From: an uncultured Kordiimonas sp.
Lineage (GTDB): Bacteria; Pseudomonadota; Alphaproteobacteria; Sphingomonadales; Kordiimonadaceae
Direction: 5' to 3'
DNA length: 64,000 bases
NCBI GenBank assembly: GCA_947500295.1
Contig: CANMRM010000001.1
Coordinates: forward strand, 1,178,001 to 1,242,000
Part shown: positions 31,179-59,991 of the stretch, piece by piece
Position numbering within the stretch: position 1 is the first letter of the stretch
How the letters are laid out: each line of letters starts with the position of its first letter
Position numbers and translations under genes: made by a program
The notes under the pieces: model-generated
The model's database searches: none
Told to the model about the DNA's origin: nothing
Seen by the model: only the letters and a program-made list of their open reading frames with translations

Positions 31179-31203
31179 CGCAACGGGTTGATTGGAACAG
31201 CAT

Positions 31204-32730: not shown

Positions 32731-32752
32731 CTGAGTAACGGGAGGGTCCGGG

Positions 32753-42370: not shown

Positions 42371-43201
42371 TCAGTGCACTTCCTCACCACCTGATACATT
42401 CAGGGCTTCGCCGGTGATATAACCTGCTGCTTCTGACGCCAGAAACACACAGGCAGCCGCCGTGTCTGTGGCGAGGCCCGGACGGCCCATTGGATTGGTG
42501 CGGCGCATGTTGGCGAGATAATCATCGACGCTGTCAAAGCCCAGCAGCTTGGAGAAATAGCCGTTTTGTTTCGCGCCAAGGCCGGTGGTGACATGATTGG
42601 GGCATACCGCATTGACCGTAATGCCATACTGCCCGAGTTCCACCGCGTTGGAGCGGGTCAGGCCGACCATGCCATGCTTTGACGCTGTGTAAGGGGCCAT
42701 ATGCGGGAAACCGGTTTTGGCAGCCTGGCTTGCGATATTGATGATCCGCCCGCCAGTTTCCTTCATGGCCATAGCCGCATGTTTGCTGCACAAAAAGGCA
42801 CCCTTCAGGTTAACGTCCAGAACAGCGTCCCACTCGTCTGCCGACAGATCGAACATCGGTTTCATGATGTAACCAATGCCTGCATTATTCACCAGAATGT
42901 CAATTTTGCCGAAATGTGCCACTGTCTTGTCAATCAGGGACTGCACCTGCGCATCATCGCGTATGTCCGCCGCTAATGTCAGGACGTCAGCACCGGACTT
43001 CCTGAGGTCGTTTGTGATCTCTTCCATTTCGTCTGTGGTGCCGATATCGTCCGCACCCATATGTTCTGCAGGTGCGCCGAGGTCGGTTACAACCAGCTTT
43101 GCACCTTCTGCGCCAAAGGCTGCCAGAATTGCTTCACCCAGTCCTTTTCTGCGGCCCGAGCCCGTGACCAGCGCAACCTTGCCGTCAAGTGTTCCTGTCA
43201 T
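42371..43201 (-). CDS. SDR-family oxidoreductase
   Basis: This 276-residue short-chain dehydrogenase has the cofactor motif TGSGRRKGLG (residues 13-22), NNAG at 105-108, Ser158 and the catalytic Tyr171-x-x-x-Lys175 (YTASKHG). These enzymes interconvert alcohol and ketone with NAD(P). An insertion between strands 2 and 3 (EHMGADDIGTTDEMEE) makes it longer than the 250-residue norm and is seen in 3-oxoacyl reductase-like members for larger substrates. The ATG is 4 bases after the HapK-like gene. It is the last gene of a MarR-led operon; substrate unknown. Confidence 0.88.
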   Translation of the reverse strand: MTGTLDGKVALVTGSGRRKGLGEAILAAFGAEGAKLVVTDLGAPAEHMGADDIGTTDEMEEITNDLRKSGADVLTLAADIRDDAQVQSLIDKTVAHFGKIDILVNNAGIGYIMKPMFDLSADEWDAVLDVNLKGAFLCSKHAAMAMKETGGRIINIASQAAKTGFPHMAPYTASKHGMVGLTRSNAVELGQYGITVNAVCPNHVTTGLGAKQNGYFSKLLGFDSVDDYLANMRRTNPMGRPGLATDTAAACVFLASEAAGYITGEALNVSGGEEVH

Positions 43202-43205
43202 CGGG

Positions 43206-43520
43206 TTATCCTTCGATATTGTCAGTCAGAATGAACATGGGATTGTCGGCAAAGCCCTGGAACTCCCCCGCTACTTTTTGCATGACATCAGTGCCCACTT
43301 CCTCGCCGAACTTTGCCATGTCGCCGACACTGATGATTTCGACATATTCATAGGGGCTCGGGTCATCGCTGCCGAGCAGGCCGTTGGCGCGAAACACTTC
43401 GAAACCAGCGATGGAAGACAGTCCGCGAACAGTTTTGAGGTCCGTTTCCCGGGCCCAGTTTTCATAAACCGCCCGGTCTGTGCCGTCCTTGAGGTTGAAT
43501 AAAACGATAATCGTGGTCAT
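43206..43520 (-). CDS. REDY-like / HapK-family protein
   Basis: This 104-residue protein has an EthD/dimeric alpha-beta barrel look and matches the family named after HapK of Hahella prodigiosin biosynthesis: TTIIVLFNLKDGTDRAVYEN, SIAGFEVFRANGLLGSDD, YEYVEIISVGDM and VMQKVAGEFQGF. GGAG precedes the ATG at 43520. The biochemical role of HapK-like proteins is not established. It sits between MmgE/PrpD and SDR genes, so a part in processing the same organic acid is possible. A longer start at 43535 is less likely. Confidence 0.75.
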   Translation of the reverse strand: MTTIIVLFNLKDGTDRAVYENWARETDLKTVRGLSSIAGFEVFRANGLLGSDDPSPYEYVEIISVGDMAKFGEEVGTDVMQKVAGEFQGFADNPMFILTDNIEG

Positions 43521-43531
43521 GGGTAACTCCG

Positions 43532-44917
43532 TCATTGTGAATTTGCGTTAGGGGCCAACTGCGCCAACAGGTGCCAGCAATCGGCAGATTGTTTGATCGC
43601 CAACAGGTCAGTGAACAGGTTGCTTGTGGCTGCCGGGGGGGCTGGGGAGAGCGAGGCTGCCAGTTCGAACTTGCTTTTCAGTTCTTCTATGGAAACGGGG
43701 TTCTTGGGTGCGCCGAGCACAGCGGGTAACCGCTCCGTCAGACGTTCACCGTTTTTCAGTTCAATACTGACTTCCTGCGGTGCAAGCGCATTCAGGTCCT
43801 GATTGTCGTCGACAAGAACGCGCACACATGACGCAGCGGCCAAAATGCCCGGATCTTCAAAGTCAGCAGCTGTAAAGCGTCGGGGATCAATTGTTTTGTC
43901 CCGCAAAGCAAGTCCGGTCAGAAACGGAAGGCACAAGCGCGCATAGGCCGGAGACATGTCTTGTCCTAGCGGACGCCCGACGAGCCGGTGCACCAGGGGC
44001 GGTACACGCGCGGTCAAGCCTGCGAAGTTATTCGCGTTTACGGTTCCTGCCTGAATATGCCGCAGTAACACCGAAAGGGCGCCGTGGCTGGCTCTTCCTG
44101 ACGGGTAGGGTTTGATCGAAAGCTCATCAATGGCAAACCGGTTTCCGAGGCCTGACACAAGCTTTCCGGTGTCGCCGTCTTCTTCGATCAGTGTGAAATA
44201 TCCAAACTTGCCGTCAAACACGTCGTGAGGCCCCTGCAAACCGGCGGCAGCAAGATCGCAGGCGTTGACCGCTGCCCGGGCAGACAGGGCGACCTGCATT
44301 GCCAGAGCCGGTGTGCCTTCCAGATGCGCCTGCATGGTGCCCTGCACCTGCGAGTAGGCGAGGCCTACGGCATTTTTTGCTTGCGCTGGAGTGAAGCCGC
44401 GTAATCGGGCTATTGCGGCTGCAGCGCCGATCAGCCCCGCCGTCGCCGGGCGAAAGAAACGAAGCGCCCCTTTGGTGGCGACACCCAGTCGGGAGGCAAT
44501 GTCGACGCCGACAATCACACTTTCAAGGAAGGTTTTGCCGCCAACGGCCTTGTGTGTCTGGACTTCTGCCCAAAGCGCGCCGGTGGTGACAGACATGGCG
44601 TGCACGACTGCAGGCTCGTGAACGGCGTCCCATTCCAGGCAGTGAATAGCGTGAGCCGCCAGAACAGCAGCGGCATCACGGTCGACCAGCTCCGGTCGAC
44701 CTGGCAAACGGTATGGGCCCTGGTTTTTTGAAAAGGCCGCCAGCATCGCAAGGTTGGTTTCTGTGTTACTGCCGGCCAGCGCACACCCGAGCGTGTCGGT
44801 AAGAAAAACACCAGCAGTATCAAATGTGGATGCAGGCGCATTTGCAGGAGCCGGGCCGAGGGCAAATTCGACCAAAGCGTCGGTCGTGTTTCCGGGTGCT
44901 GTTGGTGTGCCTGTCAT
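43532..44917 (-). CDS. MmgE/PrpD-family protein (2-methylcitrate dehydratase-like)
   Basis: This 461-residue protein of the MmgE/PrpD family has LTDTLGCALAGSNTE, AIHCLEWDAVHEPAVVHAMS (the conserved region near the active site), AAAIARLRGFTPAQAKNAVGLAYSQVQGT and IDELSIKPYPSGRASHGAL. Family members dehydrate tricarboxylic acids such as 2-methylcitrate or isomerise related acids; many divergent members, like this one, have no known substrate. It starts 13 bp after the MarR gene stop, so they are one operon. Neighbouring SDR and HapK-like genes suggest a small catabolic or biosynthetic route for an organic acid. Confidence 0.82.
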   Translation of the reverse strand: MTGTPTAPGNTTDALVEFALGPAPANAPASTFDTAGVFLTDTLGCALAGSNTETNLAMLAAFSKNQGPYRLPGRPELVDRDAAAVLAAHAIHCLEWDAVHEPAVVHAMSVTTGALWAEVQTHKAVGGKTFLESVIVGVDIASRLGVATKGALRFFRPATAGLIGAAAAIARLRGFTPAQAKNAVGLAYSQVQGTMQAHLEGTPALAMQVALSARAAVNACDLAAAGLQGPHDVFDGKFGYFTLIEEDGDTGKLVSGLGNRFAIDELSIKPYPSGRASHGALSVLLRHIQAGTVNANNFAGLTARVPPLVHRLVGRPLGQDMSPAYARLCLPFLTGLALRDKTIDPRRFTAADFEDPGILAAASCVRVLVDDNQDLNALAPQEVSIELKNGERLTERLPAVLGAPKNPVSIEELKSKFELAASLSPAPPAATSNLFTDLLAIKQSADCWHLLAQLAPNANSQ

Positions 44918-44930
44918 GCTTCAGCCTGTC

Positions 44931-45434
44931 CTATTCTTCTTCATCGATTGAGAGCAGGATTTTTTTAAGGACTTTGGCGACAATAGTTCGCTCGTCTCCG
45001 TCTATTCCATCCAGCAGGCGATGCTCAATCTGGTTTTCCTTGACGATGACGGCGTCAAAGGCGCTCAGCCCTTCCTCGGTTACGGACACAATAACACCGC
45101 GGCCATCGTTTGTATCCTTGCGCCGGGCCACCAACCCCTTCTTTTCCATGCGGGTCAGTACATTGGTCATGCCACCCGAGGTGAGTAAATTATGACGCGA
45201 AATGGCATTTGGCTTCGCCTCATAGGGCGGGCCGGACAGGATCAGGGCACCAAGGGTCTGGAATTCAGAGAAGGTAAGTCCATGCTGGTTCAGGAGGCGG
45301 TTCAGGCGGGAGAGGAAGATGTCATTGATGCGGGTGATGCGCCCCCAAACCTGCCATGGGCTGATGTCAAGGTCATGGCGAGACTCTGACCAGGCGCGGC
45401 TCAGGCGATCAAGTCTGTCTTCTTGCTCCGGCAT
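44931..45434 (-). CDS. MarR-family transcriptional regulator
   Basis: This 167-residue winged-helix regulator has RLNRLLNQHGLTFSEFQTLGALILSG, the recognition region KPNAISRHNLLTSGGMTNVLTRMEKKGLVARRKDTNDGRGVIVSVTEEG and C-terminal dimerisation helices. GAAGGGAGAG precedes the ATG at 45434, which decides it over the upstream in-frame start at 45497. It is divergent from the FAD oxidoreductase gene at 45541, and the intergenic region holds a palindrome of MarR type. It probably represses itself, the PrpD-HapK-SDR genes and the divergent oxidoreductase until a small aromatic or acid ligand binds. Confidence 0.87.
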   Translation of the reverse strand: MPEQEDRLDRLSRAWSESRHDLDISPWQVWGRITRINDIFLSRLNRLLNQHGLTFSEFQTLGALILSGPPYEAKPNAISRHNLLTSGGMTNVLTRMEKKGLVARRKDTNDGRGVIVSVTEEGLSAFDAVIVKENQIEHRLLDGIDGDERTIVAKVLKKILLSIDEEE

Positions 45435-45474
45435 TGCTCTCCCTTCAATAGTCCAGCGCGATTTGCCAATATAT

Positions 45475-45498
45475 CTTGACATAAAGCTTTTTATCAAG
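45475..45498. promoter_or_regulatory. Candidate MarR operator
   Basis: A 24-bp palindrome with arms CTTGACATAAAG and CTTTTTATCAAG (10 of 12 pairs match, centre AAAGCTTT) lies between the divergent MarR and FAD oxidoreductase genes. The CTTGA...TCAAG outer arms are typical of MarR-family sites. A second TCAA...TTGA pair follows at 45514-45530. Confidence 0.6.
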
Positions 45499-45540
45499 TG
45501 AAATTCGTGTTTTCAATCGATAAGCTTGAGCGACGTATCC

Positions 45541-46950
45541 ATGGCGATCATACGAAATCCGGATTTTACTCCTGAATATACAGTGCCAGTTGTGGTGATC
45601 GGCGGTGGTGCGTGCGGCCTGACCGCAGCGATTGCCGCGCGGCGCAAGGGTGCTGAAGTCCTTGTGCTGGAGCGCGACGCCCATCCGGCAGGTTCTACCG
45701 CAATGTCTTATGGAGGCATATGTGCTGCGAACACGGCGGCGCAGCAGCGCGCCGGCCTGAGCGACAGCACCGAGCAGTTTTTCCAGGATATCCTCGCCAT
45801 CACAAAAGGACAGACCGACCCTGCGCTCGCGCGAACTATTGCCAACAACGCAGGGCCAACCCTTGACTGGTTAACTGAGGATCTTGGCTTTGAGCTGGAT
45901 ATCGAGATGCAGTGGGCGGGGCTTGGCCACAGTGAACTTCGCCTGCATGCACCGCCCGGCCGTTCCGGTGAGGTGTTGATGGGGATGCTTTTGTCGGCAG
46001 CAGAGCGCGAAGGCGTTGATGTTTTGACGCAAGCGCGGGTCTCCGACCTCATTGTGGATGAAAGCGACACTGTGCTCGGTGTGCGTGTGGCACGCCCGGA
46101 CGGCGTTGAAGAATTTGGCGTGGAGCAGCTTGTTCTTGCAACCTGTGGGTACGGGGGCAATGAAGGCCTGATCAAACAGCATATGCCGGAGCTGAAGAAT
46201 GCCCAGTATTATGGTCATGAAGGCAATGAGGGCGACGCTCTGTTGTGGGGGCAGGAGCTCGGGGCCGCAGTTGCGGACCTTGGCGCCTATCAGGCGCTGG
46301 GGTCGCTCAGCAGTCCCGGCAATCTCGTTATCCCGCATATTCTGCTGATTGGTGGCGGCGCACAGATCAACAAAAATGGCGAACGGTTCGAAAACGAGCT
46401 GCACGATATTTCAGGACAGGCGCTGACGATCCTTGAGCAACCGGACGGTGAAATCTGGATTGTATATGACCAGAGCCTGCACGAAGACGCGATCAGCCGC
46501 TTTGAGGAATACAAAGATGCCTTTGGCCTGAACCTGTGCAAGTCAGCAGACAGCTGGGAGGCGCTGGCCTCGTTGATGAAGGTACCCGCTGATGCATTGT
46601 CACGGTCCATGGCGGATGTTCAGGCGTTCAAGCAAGGCGAAAAACATGACCCGTTTGGCCGGGCGTTCAAAGGGAACCGTGCGCTGGAGGCACCTTATTA
46701 TGCCATCAAGGTCACGGGCGCTCTGTTCCACACGCAGGGGGGCTTGTGCGTCGATGAGGAAGCGAGGGTGGTACGTCCCGACGGGTCGCCATTCCCCAAC
46801 CTTTATGCTGGCGGTGGTGCCGCGCGCAGTGTGTCGGGCCCATCCGTCTGGGGCTATCTGCCCGGCATGGGTATTTGCACAGCTGTGACGCTTGGCAAGC
46901 TCGCGGGAGAGGCCGCAGCGAAGGCCGTCATGTCGTCAGGAACTGCCTGA
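45541..46950 (+). CDS. FAD-dependent oxidoreductase, fumarate reductase/3-ketosteroid dehydrogenase flavoprotein type
   Basis: This 469-residue flavoprotein has the FAD motif VVVIGGGACGLTAAIAARRKG, GSTAMSYGGICAA, and the C-terminal FAD block PNLYAGGGAARSVSGPSVWGYLPGMGI, in the fumarate reductase/KstD/tricarballylate dehydrogenase group. Such enzymes introduce or reduce a C=C next to a carbonyl or carboxyl group. It has no export signal. It is divergent from the MarR gene, with the palindrome between them, and its 3' end overlaps that of ppd by 23 bp on the opposite strand. It could act with the PrpD/SDR genes; a role in phosphonate tailoring is only conjecture. Confidence 0.82.
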   Translation: MAIIRNPDFTPEYTVPVVVIGGGACGLTAAIAARRKGAEVLVLERDAHPAGSTAMSYGGICAANTAAQQRAGLSDSTEQFFQDILAITKGQTDPALARTIANNAGPTLDWLTEDLGFELDIEMQWAGLGHSELRLHAPPGRSGEVLMGMLLSAAEREGVDVLTQARVSDLIVDESDTVLGVRVARPDGVEEFGVEQLVLATCGYGGNEGLIKQHMPELKNAQYYGHEGNEGDALLWGQELGAAVADLGAYQALGSLSSPGNLVIPHILLIGGGAQINKNGERFENELHDISGQALTILEQPDGEIWIVYDQSLHEDAISRFEEYKDAFGLNLCKSADSWEALASLMKVPADALSRSMADVQAFKQGEKHDPFGRAFKGNRALEAPYYAIKVTGALFHTQGGLCVDEEARVVRPDGSPFPNLYAGGGAARSVSGPSVWGYLPGMGICTAVTLGKLAGEAAAKAVMSSGTA

Positions 46951-48073
46951 ACCGCTTGGCGACGTCAGTGGGCGAGAGCGTCGGACGACCAAGGTCGTTA
47001 ACGGAGCCCGGCCGGATTGCCATATGGATCAGATGAGGGCCTTTGCCATTGAGCGCGTCTTTCAGCGCGGACTGAAGACCGCTTAGCGTGTCACAGCGGT
47101 GGGCGGCCTGATAGCCGACAGCGCTTGCAATCTGAACAAAGTCGACGTTTTGTGACCCGGTTGGTTGCCCACCGGTTGAATCGTGTGCGCCGTTATCCAG
47201 AATGACGTGGATCAGGTTTTGAGGGGCTTCCGCACCAATGGTTGCCATTGTCCCAAGTCGCATCAAGGCCGCACCGTCACCATCCAAAACAACGACAGGC
47301 CGATTTTGCTGGCACAAGGAGACACCGAGCCCGATCGCACTGGCGGAGCCCATCGAACCGACCATGTAAAAATGCTGCGGCCGGTCTGACAGCGTGAAAA
47401 GTTCGCGACCACATTTTCCTGTCGTCGCAATCACTGCTGCATTTTCCGGCAAGTCCGGAAGAATGGATTTTAAGGCCTCGAAGCGGGCAGGAGGCGTGAG
47501 TTTCTTTTTCTGGTCGAAAATGTCTGTTTTTTGCGAGTATGCGGACTCTTTTTGCTCTAAATCTGACTTTTTTGTGCCCGTGGAAAAGCTGTTTGGGTGC
47601 ACGAGCAAGGCCACCGGCTTACCTGTCACCTCCATTATGTTTGCGGCCTTTATCACACAGCGATGCATTGCTTCCCTGTCTGTTGGCAGTATCAGGCTCT
47701 CAACGTCCATGAGCGCGAGCATTTCCCGAGTGGTTTTTCCCATCAGAAGATGCTGTGGTTCGTCGTCTGTGCCAGGCGCGCCGCGCCACCCCAGCACCAA
47801 TAGTGACGGAATGGAGAACGGATTATTGAGGGAACTCAGTGGGTTAATGAGATTTCCGAGGCCGGAATTTTGACAGAAGACTGCACTGCGTTTTCCCGCC
47901 AGCCATGCACCGGCTGCCAGCGAGATGGCTTCGGTTTCAATCGTTGCGGCAACGTAACGGTCGTCGTTTGCGAGAAGTTGCATGGGGGCCTTGAGGAAGG
48001 AGCACGGGACGCCAGAGAAAAAGTCAAAGCCCTGTTTTTCCAACGCTTCCAGAAAGTCTTCGGCGTTCAGCAA
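46928..48073 (-). CDS. ppd: Phosphonopyruvate decarboxylase
   Basis: This 381-residue thiamine diphosphate enzyme decarboxylates phosphonopyruvate to phosphonoacetaldehyde, the pull reaction that makes C-P bond formation favourable. Family blocks are FDFFSGVPCSFLKAPM, the N-terminal Glu region IETEAISLAAGAWLAG, CQNSGLGNLINPLSSLNNPF, VLGWRGAPGTDDEPQHLLMG and the ThDP-binding GDG (residues 265-267) with Asn294. It starts with TTG at 48073, 5 bases after the pepM stop and within reach of GGGGTAGG, so the two are coupled. The central linker is lysine-rich and variable, as usual. Confidence 0.92.
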   Translation of the reverse strand: MLNAEDFLEALEKQGFDFFSGVPCSFLKAPMQLLANDDRYVAATIETEAISLAAGAWLAGKRSAVFCQNSGLGNLINPLSSLNNPFSIPSLLVLGWRGAPGTDDEPQHLLMGKTTREMLALMDVESLILPTDREAMHRCVIKAANIMEVTGKPVALLVHPNSFSTGTKKSDLEQKESAYSQKTDIFDQKKKLTPPARFEALKSILPDLPENAAVIATTGKCGRELFTLSDRPQHFYMVGSMGSASAIGLGVSLCQQNRPVVVLDGDGAALMRLGTMATIGAEAPQNLIHVILDNGAHDSTGGQPTGSQNVDFVQIASAVGYQAAHRCDTLSGLQSALKDALNGKGPHLIHMAIRPGSVNDLGRPTLSPTDVAKRFRQFLTT

Positions 48074-48078
48074 GACAC

Positions 48079-49002
48079 CTACCCCGAGCGACGACTGCTG
48101 GTGGCCAACTGGCGCTCGCGAGCCAACAGGCCTTCGGTATCGGTGAGAGCCAGAATATCGTCAACTGTCGAGATTTTCTGTTCAAGCTCCGCAACACTGC
48201 GCGCATCAAAAATTTCCTGATACGCCTGCGTCATTGCCTTCATGGCAGCCCGCAAACCGTGATTGGCCCATATAACGGCACTGATCCCAAGGCGCTCGAA
48301 AACGTCTGTGCTCGTGTTCGAATAGGTCGTCGGCGCAATGATCAGGGGAATGCTGCCGTTCCAGCTCTTGCAGAAGGCTTCAATTTCGAAAGCAGTCTTT
48401 TGCTTTGAATGGACAAAAAGCGCATCTGCTCCAGCCGCTTCGTATCTCGCGGCCCGCTCCAGCGCTTCGCTCAAACCGGCGCCGGCAACCAGTGCCTCTG
48501 TGCGCGCGACCACACAAAAATCCGGGTCGGTTTGCTGGTCCTTTGCAGCCATAATCATGCCAGTGAAGTCTTCGATGTCGGCCAGTTGATGATGCGTATT
48601 GGCAAAGGAATTTCGTTTCGGAAACGCCTTGTCTTCAATACACACACCGGCAACACCCGCAGCGCATGCTTTAGTGACAAAACGACCGAAGATGTTGAAA
48701 TCACCGTAGCCGCTATCCGCGTCAAGCAGCACCGGCCGGTCCACAAAATCGGTTATCGGGTCAACAAGTTTGAGAACATCTGGCCAGGCAAGCTCATTGG
48801 CATCCCGCATACCCATCGAAGCGGAAAGTGTCAGACTGGAGGCCCACAATGCCTCAAAGCCCGCGTCTACAGCCAGCTTTGCTGCCAATGCATTATGCGC
48901 TTCCATAAGGAATGAAAGATCGTCGCCCTGCAGCAGCTGCTTCAGTTGGGCGCCGGCTGTCAGGTCTGTGCCGTTTGACGGAGTTTTGCGGGCGTCAGTC
49001 AA
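48079..49002 (-). CDS. pepM: Phosphoenolpyruvate mutase
   Basis: This 307-residue enzyme of the isocitrate lyase/PEP mutase superfamily rearranges phosphoenolpyruvate to phosphonopyruvate, the entry step of nearly all phosphonates. The diagnostic EDKxFPKxNS is present (EDKAFPKRNS, residues 123-132), with the Asn that distinguishes mutases from phosphonopyruvate hydrolases. Metal-binding LLDADSGYG (Asp94, Asp96), LMEAHNALAAKLA, MRDANELAW, VARTEALVAG and VIWANHGLRAA align closely with known PEP mutases. The start appears to be TTG at 49002 with GGTGA upstream; the N-terminal QLKQLL region required by the fold rules out a later ATG. Divergent from an aminotransferase gene. Confidence 0.93.
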   Translation of the reverse strand: MTDARKTPSNGTDLTAGAQLKQLLQGDDLSFLMEAHNALAAKLAVDAGFEALWASSLTLSASMGMRDANELAWPDVLKLVDPITDFVDRPVLLDADSGYGDFNIFGRFVTKACAAGVAGVCIEDKAFPKRNSFANTHHQLADIEDFTGMIMAAKDQQTDPDFCVVARTEALVAGAGLSEALERAARYEAAGADALFVHSKQKTAFEIEAFCKSWNGSIPLIIAPTTYSNTSTDVFERLGISAVIWANHGLRAAMKAMTQAYQEIFDARSVAELEQKISTVDDILALTDTEGLLARERQLATSSRRSG

Positions 49003-49158
49003 GTTTCATCACCGGTTTGTTGCACTGCTTAAATGAATGCGCATACTTGCGTAAAAACATGGATTTATCCTTCTACCTCAGTCATGTCCTTGATGTCATG
49101 GCAAAAAGAATCAAATGCCGGGCAGGTCAAATAGGTCTGTCCGGCCCGGGAGCCCAAC

Positions 49159-50373
49159 ATGAGTATGCCGCAGTTGAGTAGCCAGCTATTGTCTCTTGAT
49201 GGATATGCGACAAAAGCAATGGCGGAGAAGGCGCGCGCCATCCCCGGTGCGATTAACCTTGCATTTGGGGAGCCTGCTTTCGGACCACCGGAGACAAGCC
49301 GTGGTGTCATCGAAAGCGGTGAGCTGACGTGGGATGTTTTTCACCAGTCCAGCAAGCGTTATGAAAAGAACCGCGGCATGCCTGAACTGCGGGCGGCGAT
49401 CGCGGACTATTATACGCGCAGGTATGGGCTGCAGGTTGATCCAGAGACTGAAATTCTAATCACGCATGGGGGCGTCGAAGCGATCAATCTGGCGGCACTT
49501 GTTGTGTCAGATCCAGCCGACAGGATCCTGATCACTGACCCCACCTATATGCTTTACCAGCGGGCTATTCGCACTTTGGGCCGCGACCCGGTCTGCTTGT
49601 CGCGCACGATTGAAGAACACGAATATGAAACCCTGGAAAGGACGACTGCCATTGACGGGAATGCTCGGGCACTCATCGTCAATTCACCAGAAAATCCAAG
49701 CGGGTATGTTGCCAGTAAAAAGGATTTTGAGGCGCTTCGCCGTTTTTCAGAAAAGCGGGATTTATGGATCATTCATGACGAGGTTTATGACAGCATGGCG
49801 TTTGCCCGGCCACACATTCCGGCACGCTCGGTCACCGGATTGCGGGATCGGTCGATCCTGATCAACAGTTTTTCGAAGAAATACGGCGTGCCTGGCCTGC
49901 GCATTGGCTGGATGTGTGCGCCAAAAGCGGTCATTGATCTGGCTGCCAAGCTGCATGATTTCATGTACCTTGGCGTGAATATCCTGTCCGAGCGTATCGC
50001 GCTGCGGATGATTTCTGACACAAAGGCCGACAGCTGGATGGATGAGACCGCCCGAATACTTGGCAAGCGTGCAGATCGATTGCGCGACGTTGTCGGCGAC
50101 AGCAGTGGCTTTTCCTGGCCACGCCAGCCACTTGGCGGCATGTTTGCTTTCCCAGATGTCAGCGGTCTGGTTGCTGAAAAGCATTTGTCGAATGCAGATG
50201 GTGAAACCAGCGGCTGCGGTGCACCTGCTGCGGATTGGTTGCTGAAAAACAAAAAACTCGTCTCGATACCGGGGCATGTTTATGGCCCGACAAGTGCTGA
50301 TTGTATCCGGTTGATCCTGTGTTCTGAAGAAAGCGTGTTTGAGCGGGGCCTCCAGGCCCTTTCGTCGCTTTAG
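49159..50373 (+). CDS. PLP-dependent class I/II aminotransferase of the phosphonate cluster
   Basis: This 404-residue fold-type I aminotransferase has the PLP Lys240 in NSFSKKYGVPGLRIGW, Asp207 and Tyr210 in IIHDEVYDS, and the ring-stacking/Asn region VNSPENPSG. GGGAG precedes its ATG. It is divergent from pepM-ppd, so it most likely converts phosphonoacetaldehyde to 2-aminoethylphosphonate, or phosphonopyruvate to phosphonoalanine. The classical 2-AEP transaminase PhnW is a different (class V) type, which makes this a non-standard assignment and the product uncertain. It ends 4 bp inside the stop of the convergent ATP-grasp gene. Confidence 0.83.
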   Translation: MSMPQLSSQLLSLDGYATKAMAEKARAIPGAINLAFGEPAFGPPETSRGVIESGELTWDVFHQSSKRYEKNRGMPELRAAIADYYTRRYGLQVDPETEILITHGGVEAINLAALVVSDPADRILITDPTYMLYQRAIRTLGRDPVCLSRTIEEHEYETLERTTAIDGNARALIVNSPENPSGYVASKKDFEALRRFSEKRDLWIIHDEVYDSMAFARPHIPARSVTGLRDRSILINSFSKKYGVPGLRIGWMCAPKAVIDLAAKLHDFMYLGVNILSERIALRMISDTKADSWMDETARILGKRADRLRDVVGDSSGFSWPRQPLGGMFAFPDVSGLVAEKHLSNADGETSGCGAPAADWLLKNKKLVSIPGHVYGPTSADCIRLILCSEESVFERGLQALSSL

Positions 50374-51884
50374 GTCTGCCTGCCAGAGGCTATCTTTCTG
50401 CGCACCATGGCTTTAAAGGCACTCTCGACCGCCTCAAGGTGGGGCTGAAGGTATGGGAAATTCTCGGCATGTGAATAGCCGTGTCGCATCGCAGGGTTGA
50501 GTTCAAAGATCAGAACCGTACCATCCGCCAATAGCGTGAAGTCAAAACCAAAGAAATCCAGGCCGATGATGTCCGGGAGCGTCTGCAGAAGCTGGTATTG
50601 CGCATCCCCGATCACCGATGCCGGGTCCGCCATGAAACGTTGTTCCTTTTCCAGCATCCAGTCATGGCGGGCCATAAAGGTTTTGCGGTTGCCGCCATGC
50701 ACGTTCCACACTTCGTCAATATGATGCACGACAGGGTACAGGTCTCCGTCAATCGCGAAGAAGCGCATTTTGCTGTAGTGGCCTTGCTCAGAGGCGCTTT
50801 CAATGAATTCAATTGCATAGAGGCAGTCGCCGCCTGCAGCAGCAATATAGGCTTCAAGGGTCTCCCGGTCATCCACAAGCGCGGTTGAGATGGCCGTGTG
50901 AGTGCCGGTTTCCCGGACAATTAGCGGATAGCCAAACCCGTTTGCTTCCATTTGAGCGGCCAGGTCGCTTGGTGCAATGTCGGTGGTGTTGAACCGCCTG
51001 GTCTTGGGAAAGCGTATGCCTTCAATGTCATTCAGGGTCCGATAGTTGTTGTCGCGTGTTGTTGCCAGCACCCTGGTTGGGTGGTTGATAAGCGGCGTTT
51101 TAGTGTTGGTTTCCAGATACTTTTCCAACGATTTTAGGGAAGAGAATTCCGTATCGGCGTCTGCAATTGTATTGAGGATCAGGTCATGAGATCCTGTGGG
51201 TGGTTTTTTTGAGAGATTGTCGCCTGCAACCACGAACGAGTGAACATCAAAACTGCTGCTGTCGAGCAGATGCGCCAGCATAAAATGCCCGCCGCTGCGA
51301 TAGTATCTAAAGCTACCATTCTCTCGGCGGGCCATCTTGAATTGTGTTTTGTCAAAACCGGAAAACCGCAGAATGCGACCCAGGCTGCCTTCCTCCCGGT
51401 CTGATGTCTCAATGGACGTTGGGTGTTCAATAAAGAATGATTGCAGGAAGCCATGCGCTTCCTCTTTCCTGCCTTCCGCGTAATAAAGGCTCGACAGCCG
51501 GATGTGATCATCGTGATCATCGGGTTCCTGCTTGATAATCTGCTCGTAGATTTTGATCGCAAGCTGAATGCGGCCAGCGCTCATCAGGGTGGCACCAAGC
51601 GATCGCAGGTCTTCAACACTTTTCCCGTCGGAAAGGGCGGAGTTTTCATACCCGGCCAGTTGCACGGCAAGTTCGTAGAGTGTCGCCGATTCCTGCTTTT
51701 TCATGGTTTGAGAAAGCAGCTCGGCATGGCGAAACATCAGGGAAACAAGTGTTTCCTTGGCAAGGCCGGCCGGCACCGGAGCTGATTGATCCCGACGTCC
51801 CAGGGCGACAAAAGCGCTCGCGACTTCTTCATCCAGATCATTGGGCGCTGCATCTGCCTCTGTTTGTTTCTTGAAGAGTGGCAT
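50370..51884 (-). CDS. TPR-containing ATP-grasp ligase-like protein
   Basis: The N-terminal half holds TPR-like helices (AGRIQLAIKIYEQIIKQEPD, DHIRLSSLYYAEGRKEEAHG). The C-terminal half, from about residue 300, is an ATP-grasp domain: FPKTRRFNTTDI, GFGYPLIVRETGTHT, YAIEFIESA, FFAIDGDLYPVVH, LDFFGFDFTLLADGTVLIFELNPAM, where the last block supplies the metal-binding Glu and Asn. ATP-grasp enzymes join a carboxylate to an amine, thiol or similar group. The start at 51884 gives 504 residues; an in-frame ATG at 51950 would add a hydrophobic, unlikely segment. It follows dctP by about 110 bp on the same strand and is convergent with the aminotransferase gene. Substrates are unknown. Confidence 0.75.
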   Translation of the reverse strand: MPLFKKQTEADAAPNDLDEEVASAFVALGRRDQSAPVPAGLAKETLVSLMFRHAELLSQTMKKQESATLYELAVQLAGYENSALSDGKSVEDLRSLGATLMSAGRIQLAIKIYEQIIKQEPDDHDDHIRLSSLYYAEGRKEEAHGFLQSFFIEHPTSIETSDREEGSLGRILRFSGFDKTQFKMARRENGSFRYYRSGGHFMLAHLLDSSSFDVHSFVVAGDNLSKKPPTGSHDLILNTIADADTEFSSLKSLEKYLETNTKTPLINHPTRVLATTRDNNYRTLNDIEGIRFPKTRRFNTTDIAPSDLAAQMEANGFGYPLIVRETGTHTAISTALVDDRETLEAYIAAAGGDCLYAIEFIESASEQGHYSKMRFFAIDGDLYPVVHHIDEVWNVHGGNRKTFMARHDWMLEKEQRFMADPASVIGDAQYQLLQTLPDIIGLDFFGFDFTLLADGTVLIFELNPAMRHGYSHAENFPYLQPHLEAVESAFKAMVRRKIASGRQT

Positions 51885-51996
51885 CAGATAGAAATTTCCA
51901 AACCAGATAAAAAGCAAGAATTCCTGAAAATAATCGGTGTTGAGCCGCATGCTACGCGGGCATCACTTGCTTGTGCAAGACCCATTGAAGTGATGC

Positions 51997-53067
51997 TCAG
52001 GAGCGCAAATCCACCTGACAGGCCTCAACCGCGTCATCAAGGCTTTGCAGCCAGTCGTTGCCATATCGTTCACCAAACCAGTCTCGCATGCCCGCTGTTG
52101 CGTCAATGAAGGTCTGCCTATCGTCGATTGACGGCCTGTAGATGGTGCCGCCAGCCGCTTCAAACTCTGCCAGTGCGGATGCTTCGCCTGCTTTGGTAAT
52201 TTGCCGGGTTGCCTGCTGAAGGTCGGAAAATGCGTCCGAGATTATCGACTGCATTTCCGGCGTGAGTGCCTGCCACCGGTCCGCTGAGTACCACCACATG
52301 GCCGCCATGTAGGCGTGGCCGTCCAGTGTCAGATGCTTGATATGCTCGTGGAATTTCATACCAACAATGTCCTGAACACTGTTTTTGGTGCCTTCAACAA
52401 CCCGGGTTGCCAGAGCAGAATACAGCTCCGACCAGGCGATCGGAGTGGCGCTCGCCTCCAATTGCCTCATCATTTCCTGCTGAATGGGTGCGGTCACCGT
52501 ACGCAGTTTCAACCCGGCCAAATCCTCTGCTCTGTGAACAGGCGTGCCCACGGTCGCAAAATTGCGCCAGCCGCCGGTATTGGAGATAACGCCAAGTCTC
52601 AGGCCGGCGCCCGCCTCCAGAACGGCGCTGCGCAAGCGCTGCGCAAATGGTCCGTCGACAACACATTCCGCCGTATCATCACCATCAAAAGCGTAGGGAA
52701 GATCGAGGACCTGAATGGCGCCAAACAGGCTGCCCGCCCCGCCCGCTGTTGTCATGGTAATTTCCAGCGTGCCTGACTGCAGGGCTTCAAGACATTCGCG
52801 GGCGTTTCCGCAAAACTGACCTGCCGGGAAAATCTGAACCGTCACTTTCCCGTCGGTTCGGGTTTCAACTACCCTCTTGAAGGCAACAGCGCCCGCATAG
52901 TCTTCGTCATCTTTGGAGCCCAGAAAAGCCACTTTGATTACGTCCCCGCGCGAGGCGCCAAAACTGTAGCTCAGACCAATCAGGCACATGGTGACCAGGA
53001 TAAAAAACAATATCCGCACCATCTTTGTGCGGGTGTCATCTGTTTGCGGGGTCTCTGGTTCCATCAT
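51997..53067 (-). CDS. dctP: TRAP transporter substrate-binding protein, DctP family
   Basis: This 356-residue DctP-type protein has an N-terminal membrane/signal segment (MVRILFFILVTMCLIGLSYSF) and family blocks GAVAFKRVVETRTDGKVTVQIFPAGQF, LEITMTTAGGAGSLF, GLKLRTVTAPIQQEMMRQLEASATPIAWSELYSAL with the carboxylate-binding Arg, and VVEGTKNSVQDIV. It captures an organic acid in the periplasm for the DctQM permease. AGGGGCAC precedes the ATG. It lies 6 bp after dctM, in the same operon. The ligand is unknown; carboxylates are usual for the family. Confidence 0.92.
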   Translation of the reverse strand: MMEPETPQTDDTRTKMVRILFFILVTMCLIGLSYSFGASRGDVIKVAFLGSKDDEDYAGAVAFKRVVETRTDGKVTVQIFPAGQFCGNARECLEALQSGTLEITMTTAGGAGSLFGAIQVLDLPYAFDGDDTAECVVDGPFAQRLRSAVLEAGAGLRLGVISNTGGWRNFATVGTPVHRAEDLAGLKLRTVTAPIQQEMMRQLEASATPIAWSELYSALATRVVEGTKNSVQDIVGMKFHEHIKHLTLDGHAYMAAMWWYSADRWQALTPEMQSIISDAFSDLQQATRQITKAGEASALAEFEAAGGTIYRPSIDDRQTFIDATAGMRDWFGERYGNDWLQSLDDAVEACQVDLRS

Positions 53068-53073
53068 GTGCCC

Positions 53074-54360
53074 CTACAGAAAGCCGAGAAGTCGCGGAAT
53101 GGTGAGCGACAGGGCGGGAAAATAAGTGATCAGAAATATCACGCCGATCTCGACAGCCAGAAAGGGCAGCATCTCCTGCGCGATCCTGTCCACTTTTTCG
53201 CCCGATATCGACGAGGCAACAAAGAGAACCAGCCCCATTGGAGGCGTTGCAAGGCCGACGGTTACGTTTACGCACATGACGATTGCAAAATGCAGTGGCT
53301 CAAGTCCAAGACCTATGAAGATTGGGCCCAATACAGGCCCCAGGATCAGGATGGCAGGACCTGCATCCAGAAACATGCCGACAATCAACAGGAAGATATT
53401 CACCAGGAATAACAAGAGCAGCACATTGTCAGTGATGCCGGTGAGGGCAGTTGCAAGCTGCTCAGCCATGCCCGAAACAGTTATGATCCAGGCAAAGGTT
53501 ACGGCAGCACCCACCAGCAGCAGAATGACCCCGGACTGGGTTGCGACATTCCGGAAAATAAGAGGAAGGTCTTTTGCATTCAGCGAGCGCATGAAAAAGA
53601 GCCCGACGATCAGCGCATAAAAGGCTGCGACGGCTGCAGCTTCCGTTGGGGTGAAAATACCAAGGATTATACCGCCCAGCAAAATAACCGGGGTCAGCAG
53701 CGCGAGAATGGTGCTTTTGAAGGCAGCACCCCGCTCCCCCCACGTGGCCTTCCGGCTGGCAACTGGATAGTCGCGCACTTTTGAAATGCGGCTTGTCATG
53801 GCCATCAGGCCCGCGGCCACAAGAAACCCGGGGACAATCCCGGCGGCAAACAGCCCACCCACCGAGACATTCATAATGAAAGCGTAAATAATCATTATGC
53901 CTGACGGTGGAATGATTGGACCAATGACGGATGATGCGGCGGTTACTGCGGCCGAAAACCGTTTGGAGTATCCGGCTTCTTCCATGGCGGGCACGAGCAT
54001 TTTGCCGAGCGCCGACGTATCCGCGACAGCGGAGCCCGAAAGTCCGGCAAACAAAATTGAGGACAGGATGTTGATTTGGGCCAGGCCGCCACGCACATGA
54101 CCAATGAGTGTCTGGCTGAACTTGACAATGGCGCGGGTGATGCCGCCAGAATTCATGAGTTCGCCAGCCAGAATAAAGAAAGGCACAGCCATCAGCGGAA
54201 AGCTGTCCATGCCGTTATAGAGCCTGCTGAGGAGGGCACGCACATAAAGGGGCTGGCCATCCAGTGTCAGGCTGAGAGCCGGGCCAATCAGAAGGGCAAA
54301 CACAACCGGTGCGCCAATGACCATCAAGAGAATGAATATCCAGAAGTAACCAAGCGACAT
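53074..54360 (-). CDS. dctM: TRAP transporter large permease, DctM family
   Basis: This 428-residue membrane protein with about 11-12 helices has DctM landmarks: AVPFFILAGELMNSGGI, LSGSAVADTSALGKMLVPAM, AVTAASSVIGPIIPPSG and FLDAGPAILILGPVLGP. It forms the sodium-driven transport channel with DctQ. GGGGAG precedes the ATG, which is only 3 bases after the dctQ stop. Same-strand neighbours are dctQ before and dctP after, completing a tripartite importer. Confidence 0.94.
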   Translation of the reverse strand: MSLGYFWIFILLMVIGAPVVFALLIGPALSLTLDGQPLYVRALLSRLYNGMDSFPLMAVPFFILAGELMNSGGITRAIVKFSQTLIGHVRGGLAQINILSSILFAGLSGSAVADTSALGKMLVPAMEEAGYSKRFSAAVTAASSVIGPIIPPSGIMIIYAFIMNVSVGGLFAAGIVPGFLVAAGLMAMTSRISKVRDYPVASRKATWGERGAAFKSTILALLTPVILLGGIILGIFTPTEAAAVAAFYALIVGLFFMRSLNAKDLPLIFRNVATQSGVILLLVGAAVTFAWIITVSGMAEQLATALTGITDNVLLLLFLVNIFLLIVGMFLDAGPAILILGPVLGPIFIGLGLEPLHFAIVMCVNVTVGLATPPMGLVLFVASSISGEKVDRIAQEMLPFLAVEIGVIFLITYFPALSLTIPRLLGFL

Positions 54361-54363
54361 GAA

Positions 54364-54924
54364 CTAACCGCTCCCCTCGTTGACCAGGTATGATTTCCCG
54401 GTTGTGGTTAGGGTAAGCAGGTACCGAATGATGGTTTCAACGGCGACCAGGAACATGGCAGCGAATGCGCCTGGCACAATACTGTAGAACCATGAAAGCT
54501 TGATCGGCAGTGTTGCAGCGAAGGTTGCGCGACCGCGCTGCCAGAAGTCTATGCTTTCAATGAAAAAGACATAGAGTGCCCACAAAACGAGGGCATGGAT
54601 GATGAGGCCGAGCCAAAGACGAAATCGCTCTGAAAAGGGCTCGATGAACATGTCTACTGACACAAAGGCTCCATAGCGATAGGCCCAGGGACTGACGAGA
54701 AAAGTGACCCAGACCATCATGGCCTTGGCAATTTCCTCGCTCCAGCCAAAGGCATCATTCAGGACATACCGGTAGAATACCTGCGCCAGCACGATTGTGA
54801 CCATGGTCGCAAGCAGGAGCGCGGCTATGTTGCACCCTGTTTTTGCAATCACTGCATTCAATCGACCCAGCAGCGACGCGGTATTTTCGAAGAACTGTCG
54901 CAAGGCCTCTCCCCTTGGCTTCAA
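54364..54924 (-). CDS. dctQ: TRAP transporter small permease, DctQ family
   Basis: This protein of about 186 residues has four transmembrane helices and the DctQ signatures VLAQVFYRYVLNDAFGWSEEIAKAMMVWVTFL and YGAFVSVDMFIEPF. The start is not certain: TTG at 54924, or TTG at 54903, which has AGGGGAGAGG close upstream. It is 84 bp downstream of a TonB receptor gene on the same strand, with a hairpin between. Outer-membrane receptor and TRAP importer may therefore serve one substrate. Confidence 0.88.
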   Translation of the reverse strand: MKPRGEALRQFFENTASLLGRLNAVIAKTGCNIAALLLATMVTIVLAQVFYRYVLNDAFGWSEEIAKAMMVWVTFLVSPWAYRYGAFVSVDMFIEPFSERFRLWLGLIIHALVLWALYVFFIESIDFWQRGRATFAATLPIKLSWFYSIVPGAFAAMFLVAVETIIRYLLTLTTTGKSYLVNEGSG

Positions 54925-54948
54925 GCGCGAACAGGATCAAAAGTCTGG

Positions 54949-54971
54949 GCGCACCACCCGTGGTGATGCGC
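54949..54971 (-). other. Hairpin between TonB receptor gene and dctQ
   Basis: GCGC and CACCAC pair with GTGGTG and GCGC (a two-base bulge in one arm) around a 2-base loop. On the minus strand the stem is followed by CCAGACTTTTG, a weak T-run. It may reduce TRAP expression relative to the receptor or fully terminate; the sequence does not decide. Confidence 0.4.
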
Positions 54972-55008
54972 TTTCATTGTTGGCGAGCTTGCCCGCTGTG
55001 GCAACCGC

Positions 55009-57396
55009 TTAGTTGAAGTTTGCCCGCAGGTTGATGCCGAAAAAGCGGTCAGCGTCACGCGGGATCTGATAGCGGAAGTTGTCGCCGCTGTGTGTGGTGA
55101 CAAAGCTTTCGTCGAACAGGTTCCTGACAAAACCGGTAACCAGATACTGGCCGTCATTCATCGAAAGTGTGATGCCCGCATCCACTTTGTCATATCCAGG
55201 CAACAAGCTCACCGGGTTGAAGGTGCCGTTTGTGCCCGGCAGCAGTGACTGCTGGTCATCAACGCGTGCCCAGTTGGCATTCAAAATCACCTCTGTGCCA
55301 TCACTCACCGGAATGATGTACTCGCCGCCGATGTTGAAGTTGAAGTCAGGCGAGAACAAGAGGTCCAGTCCCGATCGGCTGGTACAGCCGGCGGGTGGCT
55401 GACCGGACAGCGGATCAAGCGGGCAATTGAATTCTTCGATCTGTGCATCGTTCCATGCCGCTGATGCCGTGAGGGTGAAATTGGCCGTCGGGTTCCACAG
55501 GACATCAAGCTCTATACCTTTGGTCGACACGTCGCCGGCATTAGTCAGCCGGGTGATGGTGACGCCGGTTGAATTGTCGAAGTTGTTTGCCTGGAAACCG
55601 CTGATATCGGTGTAGTAGGCAGCCAGGTTCACAACAAGATCTGACGACGCATATTTGTAGCCAACCTCATAGCTGTCTGACGATTCTTCATTGATCGGCA
55701 ATTCGTCGTTGCGACCCATGTTGTAAAATACATTGAACGCCGGGCCTTTATAACCTTGCGAATAGGTTGCGTAGAACACACCCGCATCGCCCATGTTGTA
55801 CTGCAGGCCAGCCTGGATCGAGAAGTCCGTGTTGCTGCTTTCATTGGCGAAATCGGTCGCAAAACCACCGGACGCTTCACTGAACTGGCTGTTCGGCAGC
55901 TCTGGCCGCACGCCAACACCCTGGCGACCAAACGGGTCGAGGCTGACGCGGCGGTGATTGAAGGAAACGGTGTCATCGGTGTATCGCGCACCAAAGATCA
56001 ATGTCAGTTCGTCTTCGATAATTTCATAGCTGCCTTGCCCGAAGAGAGCCCAGTTTTCGATGTCGACACTGGAAAAACCGGTGGCGGCAACAATATCGTT
56101 AGCGTTACAGGTCAGACCGGGGTTTGCGTCCAGGATAGGCTGGTTCTGGCCGCCATTGTTCTGGCAGCTTGCGTTCCGGGTAAAATCGGCTTCCTGGTCC
56201 TGATTGAAGTAGTAGAAGCCAACCTGATAGAACAGGCGCTCGCCTTCAGGACCGGCCACACGAAACTCCTGGGAGACCTGATCCCACTCCCGGGTGCCAT
56301 CATCATGCAACTGGAAAGGGACACCAAACACGGGCTGGTCGGAGGTGCCGCCGATTGACGTGAAATCACCTTCCCGAAACTCGGTGTTGACCCAGTTTCT
56401 GTAGGCGGTGATCGACGTGAAGGTGAAATTCTCGAAGTCTTTGTTGATTTCGATCGACCAGGCATCGTTGTTATCGAGCGTGGTGGTCTCAAAATCATGG
56501 TCAACGCGGCGCTGGCCCAGGTCCAGGTCAGCAACACCGTTGACGATGCCGTCGCTGTCAGGTGCGGCGGGTGACGCCGGGTTGCGGCCACTTGGCAGAA
56601 CCTCAAGGTCGGCACAGCAATCGTCATCAGCTTCTGAATGCTCGTAGATGGCCAGAATCGACAGAGTGTCCGACGGCATATATTCGACCATTGCCCGGAA
56701 GCCGTATCGGTCATACCCGTTGACAGTACGGTTGTTGAAAACGTTTCGTATATAGCCCGCGAACTCCGACTTGGTGACGGTCAGGCTGGCGTTCACATTG
56801 TCAGCAAGCGGGCCAGAGATGCGGCCGCGCACCCGCCATTCATTGTCTTCCGCCAGCATGGCATCCACGTAGCCCTCGAGCTCGCTGGACGGGCGTTTGG
56901 TCGTGATGTTCACCACACCCGCCGAGGCGTTTTTGCCAAAGAGCGTGCCTTGCGGGCCGCGCAACACCTCCAGGCGCTCAATGTCATAGAGGTCGGCGAA
57001 TGCCTGCCCCGAGCGAGCGAGTACCACGCCGTCAACAACGGTGGATACGCTGGGTTCCGCAGCGCCACTGAACGAAATGGTGCCGATACCACGGATGGTG
57101 ATCGCCGAGTTGGCGTTGGTCGTGCCCTTGCGGAAACTGACCGCCGGGATCAGGGTTTGCAGTGATTCGATGTTGGGTGCCTGTGCCCGCTCGATGGCTG
57201 TAGACCCGAGAACGCTTACGGCAATGGGGACTTCGCTCAGTCTCTGCTCCCGCTTTTGCGACGTCACTACGATCTCTTCAAACACCGTATTGTCGCTTGA
57301 AGCATCTTGCCCGATAGCAGGTGCGGCGCAGGCGATTGCCGCTGCCGCCGACACGCTGGACAACGCTGTCATTTTAATCCGATTGAGTGTGGACAT
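55009..57396 (-). CDS. TonB-dependent receptor upstream of the TRAP genes
   Basis: This 795-residue receptor has a signal peptide (ALSSVSAAAAIACAAPAIGQ), TonB-box-like EEIVVTSQKREQ, and plug blocks LSEVPIAVSVLG, IRGIGTISFSGAAEP and LEVLRGPQGTLFGKNASAG of the iron-complex/small-molecule receptor type, then a barrel ending NLRANFN. GGAGG precedes the ATG. It differs from the large sugar receptor at 25636 in size and plug type. Its promoter region (57397-57747) contains a conspicuous inverted repeat. Substrate unknown; being followed by TRAP genes points to an organic acid or its complex. Confidence 0.9.
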   Translation of the reverse strand: MSTLNRIKMTALSSVSAAAAIACAAPAIGQDASSDNTVFEEIVVTSQKREQRLSEVPIAVSVLGSTAIERAQAPNIESLQTLIPAVSFRKGTTNANSAITIRGIGTISFSGAAEPSVSTVVDGVVLARSGQAFADLYDIERLEVLRGPQGTLFGKNASAGVVNITTKRPSSELEGYVDAMLAEDNEWRVRGRISGPLADNVNASLTVTKSEFAGYIRNVFNNRTVNGYDRYGFRAMVEYMPSDTLSILAIYEHSEADDDCCADLEVLPSGRNPASPAAPDSDGIVNGVADLDLGQRRVDHDFETTTLDNNDAWSIEINKDFENFTFTSITAYRNWVNTEFREGDFTSIGGTSDQPVFGVPFQLHDDGTREWDQVSQEFRVAGPEGERLFYQVGFYYFNQDQEADFTRNASCQNNGGQNQPILDANPGLTCNANDIVAATGFSSVDIENWALFGQGSYEIIEDELTLIFGARYTDDTVSFNHRRVSLDPFGRQGVGVRPELPNSQFSEASGGFATDFANESSNTDFSIQAGLQYNMGDAGVFYATYSQGYKGPAFNVFYNMGRNDELPINEESSDSYEVGYKYASSDLVVNLAAYYTDISGFQANNFDNSTGVTITRLTNAGDVSTKGIELDVLWNPTANFTLTASAAWNDAQIEEFNCPLDPLSGQPPAGCTSRSGLDLLFSPDFNFNIGGEYIIPVSDGTEVILNANWARVDDQQSLLPGTNGTFNPVSLLPGYDKVDAGITLSMNDGQYLVTGFVRNLFDESFVTTHSGDNFRYQIPRDADRFFGINLRANFN

Positions 57397-57747
57397 GTAA
57401 ACCTCCGGCTTAATTTATGCTTTGCTTAACTCGAAACATAACACGCGGGAGTGATGGCTTTGCGGACGCAAAACCCAGGGTGGTATTGTCTCCCCAGAAG
57501 TAACTTTTTATTGCGGTTTCGGCGCAAAAAGTTACGACTTATTAATCTTCCCAAGGGCCATTTGATAACATTTGCATAATAAATGCAACTTATTGTCATT
57601 CACGGCTTGTTGATGGCGCCTCTTGGGTATAAATCACTTGAAGCAATAAAAAGTACCGCCATACTGACGTTTTGGACGCAGTCGAGGCGTTCATAGTTTC
57701 CCAAAAAAGCACGGCCTGCGCGGTCGGTGCAAAACAAGGCCCAACGA
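57397..57747. other. 351-bp divergent promoter region of the third TonB receptor and the Gfo/Idh gene
   Basis: No gene is visible here. The stretch is AT-rich and contains the inverted repeat at 57500-57535. No LacI-1 or LacI-2 type site is present, so this region belongs to a different regulon. Confidence 0.5.
57500..57535. promoter_or_regulatory. 36-bp inverted repeat, candidate operator or leader hairpin
   Basis: GTAACTTTTT and AAAAAGTTAC form a perfect 10-bp inverted repeat separated by 16 bp, with a smaller GCG/CGC pair inside. It is 104 bp upstream of the receptor start. No regulator gene lies next to it, so the controlling protein is not identifiable here. Confidence 0.5.
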
Positions 57748-59013: not shown

Positions 59014-59991
59014 ATGAGCAACACTATTCAAGAGACCACAGCCAGTTTCCAGCAATCCTATCCTGATGGCCCGTTTCCGGCATTGATTGTTAATGCGGAC
59101 CAGAACCTCGATCTGGCTGGCACAGTTGATTGGGTGAAAAGCGAGAAAGAACGCCTCTTCGAAGCATTGTCTGACAGCGGAACGGTCCTGTTCCGTGGGT
59201 TTCCCCTGTCATCTCCGGAAGACTTTGATGCGTTCATTGCCGCCTTTGGCGAGTCCGGGTTCACCTACAAAGAATCGCTTTCCAACGCTGTACGGGTTAA
59301 TTTGACCGAGCGCGTTTTTACCGCCAACGAGGCGCCGCCCGAGGTTGGTATTTATTTGCATCATGAGATGGCACAGACGCCCTTGTTCCCCTCGAAACTC
59401 TATTTCTTTTGTGAAATTGCCGCTGACGAAGGTGGTGAGACGCCAGTCTGTCGGTCGGACGTGTTGCTTGATCGCATGAAAGAACTGGAGCCCGATTTTG
59501 TTCAGGCCTGTCGTGACAAACTGGTGAAATACAGTTTGGTGATGCCGTCTGTAGATGATCCGGAGTCCGGCCAGGGCCGTGGCTGGCAAAGCACGCTGGG
59601 TGTTAATACACGCGCAGAAGCTGAGGCCCGCCTTGAGAAGCTGAATTACAGCTGGAAATGGCTTGAGGACGGGAGTTTACGCACGACAACACCTGCACTG
59701 CCCGCTATTCGTGAAGCCGAGAACGGTCGTGAAGCCTTTTTCAACCAACTGATCGCAGCCTTCCTTGGCTGGGCCGATATCAGCCATACCGGTGTGCATA
59801 AAATTGCCTTCGGGGATGGCTCACCCATGCCTGCTGATGTCATGCAGCGCGTGTGTGATATGGCCGAAGACCTGATTGTTGACCTGCCGTGGCAGGCGGG
59901 TGACGTGGCACTTGTCGACAACTATCAGGTTATGCATGGCCGCCGCTCGTTTGTAGGCAAGCGGCGGGTCCTGGCTGCGCTGATTTCCTAG
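59014..59991 (+). CDS. TauD/TfdA-type Fe(II)/2-oxoglutarate dioxygenase, SyrP-like
   Basis: This 325-residue protein has the clavaminate synthase/SyrP version of the iron site: His116-x-Glu118 in YLHHEMAQTP rather than the usual His-x-Asp, with distal His308 in YQVMHGRRSF and the 2-oxoglutarate-binding Arg just after (GKRRVL). Such enzymes hydroxylate or desaturate amino acids, often in natural-product pathways. GAGAGG precedes the ATG. It is paired with the Gfo/Idh/MocA gene. Its stop overlaps the stop of the convergent RND gene in a shared CTAG. A tailoring role on an amino acid or aminophosphonate is possible but unproven. Confidence 0.85.
   Translation: MSNTIQETTASFQQSYPDGPFPALIVNADQNLDLAGTVDWVKSEKERLFEALSDSGTVLFRGFPLSSPEDFDAFIAAFGESGFTYKESLSNAVRVNLTERVFTANEAPPEVGIYLHHEMAQTPLFPSKLYFFCEIAADEGGETPVCRSDVLLDRMKELEPDFVQACRDKLVKYSLVMPSVDDPESGQGRGWQSTLGVNTRAEAEARLEKLNYSWKWLEDGSLRTTTPALPAIREAENGREAFFNQLIAAFLGWADISHTGVHKIAFGDGSPMPADVMQRVCDMAEDLIVDLPWQAGDVALVDNYQVMHGRRSFVGKRRVLAALIS

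Follow-up and report, generated by a model that had tools for sequence, protein, structure and literature searches.

A four-gene pepM cassette of Kordiimonas pairing a class I/II aminotransferase with a TPR/ATP-grasp protein: a candidate route to conjugates of 2-aminoethylphosphonate

The window analysed here, a stretch of 64,000 nucleotides from a Kordiimonas-type genome of 4.27 Mb, carries a cassette of four genes (46928-51950) built around pepM, which encodes phosphoenolpyruvate (PEP) mutase. An initial annotation had recognized a phosphonate biosynthesis locus of three genes at 46928-50373. All three genes stand, although the end was set too early, as the unit runs to 51950 and includes an unlisted gene for a protein with tetratricopeptide (TPR) repeats and an ATP-grasp domain. 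The features are as follows.

46928-48073, minus strand: Ppd, phosphonopyruvate decarboxylase, a thiamine diphosphate enzyme (TIGR03297; DGDGAALMRLGT motif)
48079-49002, minus strand: PepM, PEP mutase (TIGR02320; EDK(X)5NS motif; PDB 1m1b)
49003-49158, no strand: divergent intergenic region of 156 bases, with ATGTCATGGCAAA at 49093-49105
49159-50373, plus strand: class I/II pyridoxal phosphate (PLP) aminotransferase, proposed phosphonoacetaldehyde transaminase (PF00155; co-occurrence with pepM; fold-type residues; structure model)
50370-51950, minus strand: TPR protein with an ATP-grasp domain, a proposed carboxylate-amine ligase (Pfam TPR; AlphaFold/Foldseek; linkage)

The pepM gene lies directly upstream of ppd on the same (minus) strand, with a gap of 5 bases, and the TPR/ATP-grasp and aminotransferase genes share 4 bases at the end of the latter. 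Gaps this tight leave no space inside the unit for a separate precursor gene, although the 156-base divergent region might just hold a very small one. The conserved unit contains no exporter and no additional tailoring gene. As previously annotated, genes for a cytidylyltransferase, phosphonolipids or exopolysaccharide are missing from the surroundings, with none of these families found in a Pfam scan of 30 window proteins (main open reading frames, 21.5-63.0 kb). Among the same proteins no PntC-type nucleotidyltransferase occurs beside pepM or fused to it, PepM being only 307 amino acids long.

The predicted formation of a C-P bond from PEP by PepM, followed by decarboxylation by Ppd, is well supported, since both proteins score above the curated cut-offs of their families, and the earlier pairing of a PEP mutase with an intact motif and a phosphonopyruvate decarboxylase is borne out. 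PepM scores 335.3 bits against TIGR02320 (cut-off 319.55). The readings as phosphonopyruvate hydrolase (TIGR02321, 208.4 bits against a cut-off of 374.4) or methylisocitrate lyase were rejected, both models falling far under their cut-offs. The motif E123-D124-K125-A-F-P-K-R-N131-S132 is present, and eight of its residues (E123, D124, K125, F127, P128, K129, N131 and S132) do not vary among the eight PepM proteins aligned. The closest solved structure is a PEP mutase, PDB 1m1b (E-value 5e-89, aligned residues 16-295). Ppd scores 427.2 bits against TIGR03297 (cut-off 312.5), falls under the cut-offs of the sulfopyruvate decarboxylase models, and has a DGDGAALMRLGT motif that is invariant across eight orthologues. 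That the set might instead run in reverse, degrading an aminophosphonate, is extremely improbable. Transamination by PLP enzymes is reversible, but the decarboxylation is irreversible, the curated cut-offs identify a mutase and not a hydrolase, and phnJ was not found in the source genome, where no search was aimed at phosphonatase genes.

The third enzyme is indeed of class I/II and not of the PhnW type. It matches PF00155 at 171 bits, its predicted structure (mean pLDDT 79.7) matches known aminotransferases, and the PhnW/AepZ model TIGR03301 (cut-off 360.8) finds no member in any of 29 genomes of the family. None of its best 25 NCBIfam families exceeds the cut-off. The top match is GntC, a cyclodehydratase, at 228 bits against a cut-off of 415, and a long branch sets the cassette enzyme apart from the other aminotransferases compared, both of which would suit a non-transaminase reaction, such as a cyclisation or elimination, on an amino acid later joined to the phosphonate. 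We regard such a role as very unlikely. The GntC match is not specific, because the model also scores generic aminotransferases, at 238-267 bits, and the cassette enzyme retains the full set of seven residues typical of class I transaminases (Y68, N175, D207, Y210, K240, R248 and R384), which we take to have their usual catalytic and binding roles, R384 being the presumed alpha-carboxylate Arg.

The comparison of pepM neighbourhoods suggested by the initial annotation places the cassette in nine genomes of the family. PepM is over the cut-off in 9/29, and the aminotransferase profile (E-value 1e-60) matches exactly the same nine, an agreement with a chance probability of 1e-7 if the genomes were independent, which relatives are not. 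Ppd is present in all nine cassettes, and the TPR/ATP-grasp gene adjoins the aminotransferase gene in all nine, being intact in seven, fragmented in G016, and reduced in G023 to 54 residues by the end of the contig. Gene order and orientation are retained across at least four different flanks: TRAP/TonB genes in G000, G025, G026 and G021, a shared set of genes in G022, G016 and G023, and others in G009 and G018. Moreover, when the four proteins are compared between seven genomes (21 pairs), their identities rise and fall together (r 0.68-0.89). The TPR/ATP-grasp gene is thus a member of the unit. In G016 (L042, 9606-13455), pepM and ppd have open frames, whereas the other two genes of the cassette are each broken into pieces.

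Outside the family this arrangement was not recovered. In a class-level sample, pepM is over the cut-off in 44/385 genomes, the source genome included, and 38 of these 44 lie in an open frame of at least 540 amino acids, which would presumably fit the type with a fused nucleotidyltransferase. Neither the aminotransferase nor the ligase profile (E-value 1e-4) finds a match near pepM in the other 43 genomes, three of which are represented by stretches shorter than 5 kb. Nine class genomes with sub-cut-off matches, chosen from a longer list, yielded no ligase and one aminotransferase match (L201). In a phylum-level sample, pepM is over the cut-off in 19/369 genomes, of which the source genome, G574 and G624 were already among those examined; the remaining 16, together with one sub-cut-off genome, supplied 19 stretches. 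The ligase is found in none of these 19. The aminotransferase is matched in four (L224, L225, L228 and L229), corresponding to the over-cut-off genomes G484, G487 and G490 and the sub-cut-off genome G365. A search of the phylum for the aminotransferase itself used an E-value of 1e-90, at which weaker orthologues may escape. Overall, 59 other genomes with pepM over the cut-off show the ligase near pepM in no case and a class I/II aminotransferase near it in three.

The aminotransferases of L224, L225 and L228 are only 24-26% identical to that of the window, form a separate clade, and come from stretches without Ppd. These loci (L224, 6946-12345; L225; L228, 1234-7892) are Rhizobia-like pepM clusters comprising PepM, an enzyme of the aspartate aminotransferase (AspAT) type and a MobA-like nucleoside triphosphate transferase, with a CDP-alcohol phosphatidyltransferase gene in addition in L228 and an asparagine-synthase-like gene in L224. 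They perhaps represent a phosphonoalanine phospholipid route.

The protein encoded at 50370-51950 gives only TPR-type matches to Pfam and NCBIfam, and no Pfam ATP-grasp model, RimK included, matches it at an E-value of 0.001. An AlphaFold model built from nine sequences (mean pLDDT 84.4) nevertheless retrieves D-Ala-D-Ala ligases (Ddl), LysX/ArgX, RimK and PsnB with Foldseek, at E-values of 1e-9 to 4e-8 and a probability of 1.00, and on these matches the C-terminal part of the modelled protein is an ATP-grasp fold. Across 16 homologues six residues do not vary (D449, E462, N464, K373, R375 and R468; numbering starts at 51887); we take D449 and E462-x-N464 to be the metal site and K373/R375 to be basic residues of the ATP site. 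Since proteins and peptides are common ligands of TPR repeats, a peptide or protein partner for the ligase is possible. A profile of the ligase finds nine named loci in GTDB, six of them named Kordiimonas or Kordiimonadaceae and the remainder Alphaproteobacteria or Sphingomonadales.

Homologues elsewhere occur in diverse settings. In L116 (5700-8062), the ATP-grasp homologue overlaps by 4 bases a class V aminotransferase gene that looked PhnW-like at first and proved to be a phosphoserine transaminase, with a 2-hydroxyacid dehydrogenase further on. In L110 (3989-8338) and L118 (5070-9457), from another genus of the order, the homologue has a TonB receptor gene on one side and an alpha/beta hydrolase gene on the other, and in L105 (4011-6500) a TauD-like dioxygenase gene immediately precedes it.

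Taken as a pathway, the four genes would make a conjugate of 2-aminoethylphosphonate (AEP), a reading to which we give a probability of about 0.5. PepM would convert PEP to phosphonopyruvate, and Ppd would decarboxylate this to phosphonoacetaldehyde, pulling the mutase reaction forward; both roles follow from family membership. Amination of phosphonoacetaldehyde to AEP would then fall to the class I/II aminotransferase rather than to PhnW/AepZ, as the context and active-site residues of the former suggest. Finally, to judge from fold and linkage, the TPR/ATP-grasp enzyme may activate a carboxylate with ATP and link it to the amine of AEP through an amide bond. The initial annotation had left the product as AEP, phosphonoalanine or a novel derivative. 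AEP is now favoured because of the conserved Ppd and, weakly, the missing AspAT-type Lys; a conjugate is proposed because the ATP-grasp gene belongs to the unit; and phosphonoalanine becomes less favoured.

Phosphonoalanine would result if the aminotransferase acted on phosphonopyruvate, like PnaA, with the ATP-grasp enzyme making phosphonoalanine peptides and Ppd serving a side branch. The cassette enzyme does retain R384, and PnaA is an AspAT-superfamily PLP enzyme from a phosphonoalamide pathway that has ATP-grasp ligases (PMC11867202, which gives phosphonoalanine at 16.5 ppm). We consider this route unlikely, as Ppd, a constant member of the cassette, would drain phosphonopyruvate, and the pepM-adjacent aminotransferases from the stretches without Ppd belong to another clade. 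The active site also speaks, if softly, against it. All eight cassette aminotransferases aligned have Val106 at the position of the AspAT-type Lys, a residue that presumably binds the second acid group of the substrate and that is present in the enzymes of L224, L225 and L228. Val106 may therefore suit a substrate with one acid group, phosphonoacetaldehyde, better than phosphonopyruvate, an argument that is weak because three unrelated aminotransferases (L116, L231 and L233) likewise lack the Lys, and that rests on alignments of only 19-26% identity.

These limits are among several points that weigh against an AEP conjugate. The best TIGR03301 match in the source genome, a class V protein encoded on a different contig and scoring a sub-cut-off 219.9 bits, could in principle act on AEP. 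The best Foldseek match of the ligase model reaches a TM score of about 0.55 by target, with root mean square deviations of 7-8 A, which indicates the fold and not the substrate. TPR/ATP-grasp homologues with 30-43% identity occur in seven family genomes that lack pepM; another, at 386 bits, is found without pepM in G311; and no PepM or Ppd appears among the compared open reading frames of 20 stretches around distant homologues. Since, in addition, the pepM-linked ligases do not form a clean clade, the ligase family is wider than phosphonates. The homologues without pepM and the lack of a clean clade would also fit a cassette that yields free AEP, its TPR/ATP-grasp enzyme being a mere neighbour with a separate task; adjacency in every pepM genome of the family despite the changing flanks makes this unlikely. 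A more specific form of the conjugate proposal has the TPR part bind a protein or peptide while the ATP-grasp part couples AEP to the carboxylates of this partner, following the model of LysX/ArgX or RimK, dispensing with cytidylyl activation and drawing on AEP from a class I/II transaminase that replaces PhnW; we hold this to be quite doubtful.

The 156-base divergent region carries a short repeated element. The sequence ATGTCATGGCAAA is exact in five of the nine pepM/aminotransferase intergenic regions of the family and present with two mismatches in two more, and L040 (3977-4192) has three tandem copies at a spacing of 12. Within the window, eight matches with at most two mismatches are found against 2.8 expected, a number reached in 3 of 100 shuffles, and the only exact match is that at 49093-49105. 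PhoB boxes follow an 11-base pattern, which the spacing does not match, and a PhoB box was rejected on that ground.

Neighbouring genes on both sides were considered as pathway members and set aside. The TRAP, TonB and Gfo/Idh genes (51997-58977) lie next to the cassette in G025, G026 and G021 and are missing from that place in G009, G022 and G016, while the stretches of G018 and G023 stop close to the ligase gene and are uninformative; TauD follows at 59014-59991. On the Ppd side, the block at 42371-46950 encodes SDR, HapK-like, MmgE/PrpD and MarR proteins and a divergent flavocytochrome-like FAD reductase. Among the eight stretches read, the window has the order of this FAD reductase/MarR/MmgE block in common with G025 only. 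Further away, a TonB receptor, SapC, two flavoproteins of the Trp_halogenase family and a Cupin_8 protein are encoded consecutively at 25573-33781, a run flanked by LacI regulators, and a GH3 glycosidase lies at 38008.

Two known kinds of system come close to the cassette. The AEP branch ppm-ppd-aept, e.g. of Treponema denticola, and the Pnt pathways of phosphonyl tailoring (PMC6697681) have PepM and Ppd in common with the cassette, as well as AEP, the intermediate proposed here. The cassette differs in having a class I/II aminotransferase rather than PhnW/AepZ, and a TPR/ATP-grasp gene with no PntC-type nucleotidyltransferase seen nearby. The Streptomyces phosphonoalamide cluster pnaABCD (PMC11867202) comprises pepM, an aminotransferase of the AspAT superfamily and two ATP-grasp ligases, and resembles the cassette in these three kinds of enzyme. 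In contrast, the cassette has Ppd and a single ligase, which bears TPR repeats, PnaA-D having been compared by description only. The ligase itself shares its fold, and the presumed metal-site and ATP-site residues, with LysX/ArgX and RimK, from which it differs by its N-terminal TPR repeats and its lack of an ATP-grasp Pfam match. The cassette therefore lacks a defining feature of each known whole system: PhnW/AepZ and a nucleotidyltransferase in the case of the AEP branch, and the absence of Ppd and the pair of ligases in that of the phosphonoalamides. Titles and abstracts of the open-licence PMC literature yielded no description of this gene set or of phosphonate synthesis in Kordiimonas, which is not proof of novelty.

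Counting pepM and ppd alone would class the cassette as an ordinary AEP cluster. Since it is just four genes long and a named marine strain, Kordiimonas aquimaris JCM 16665 (L059), carries it with all four genes open, its product is directly testable. If the proposal is true, it would add a second, unrelated enzyme type for the synthesis of AEP, a very common biogenic phosphonate, and AEP conjugates could be formed by ATP-grasp ligation with no need for cytidylyl activation.

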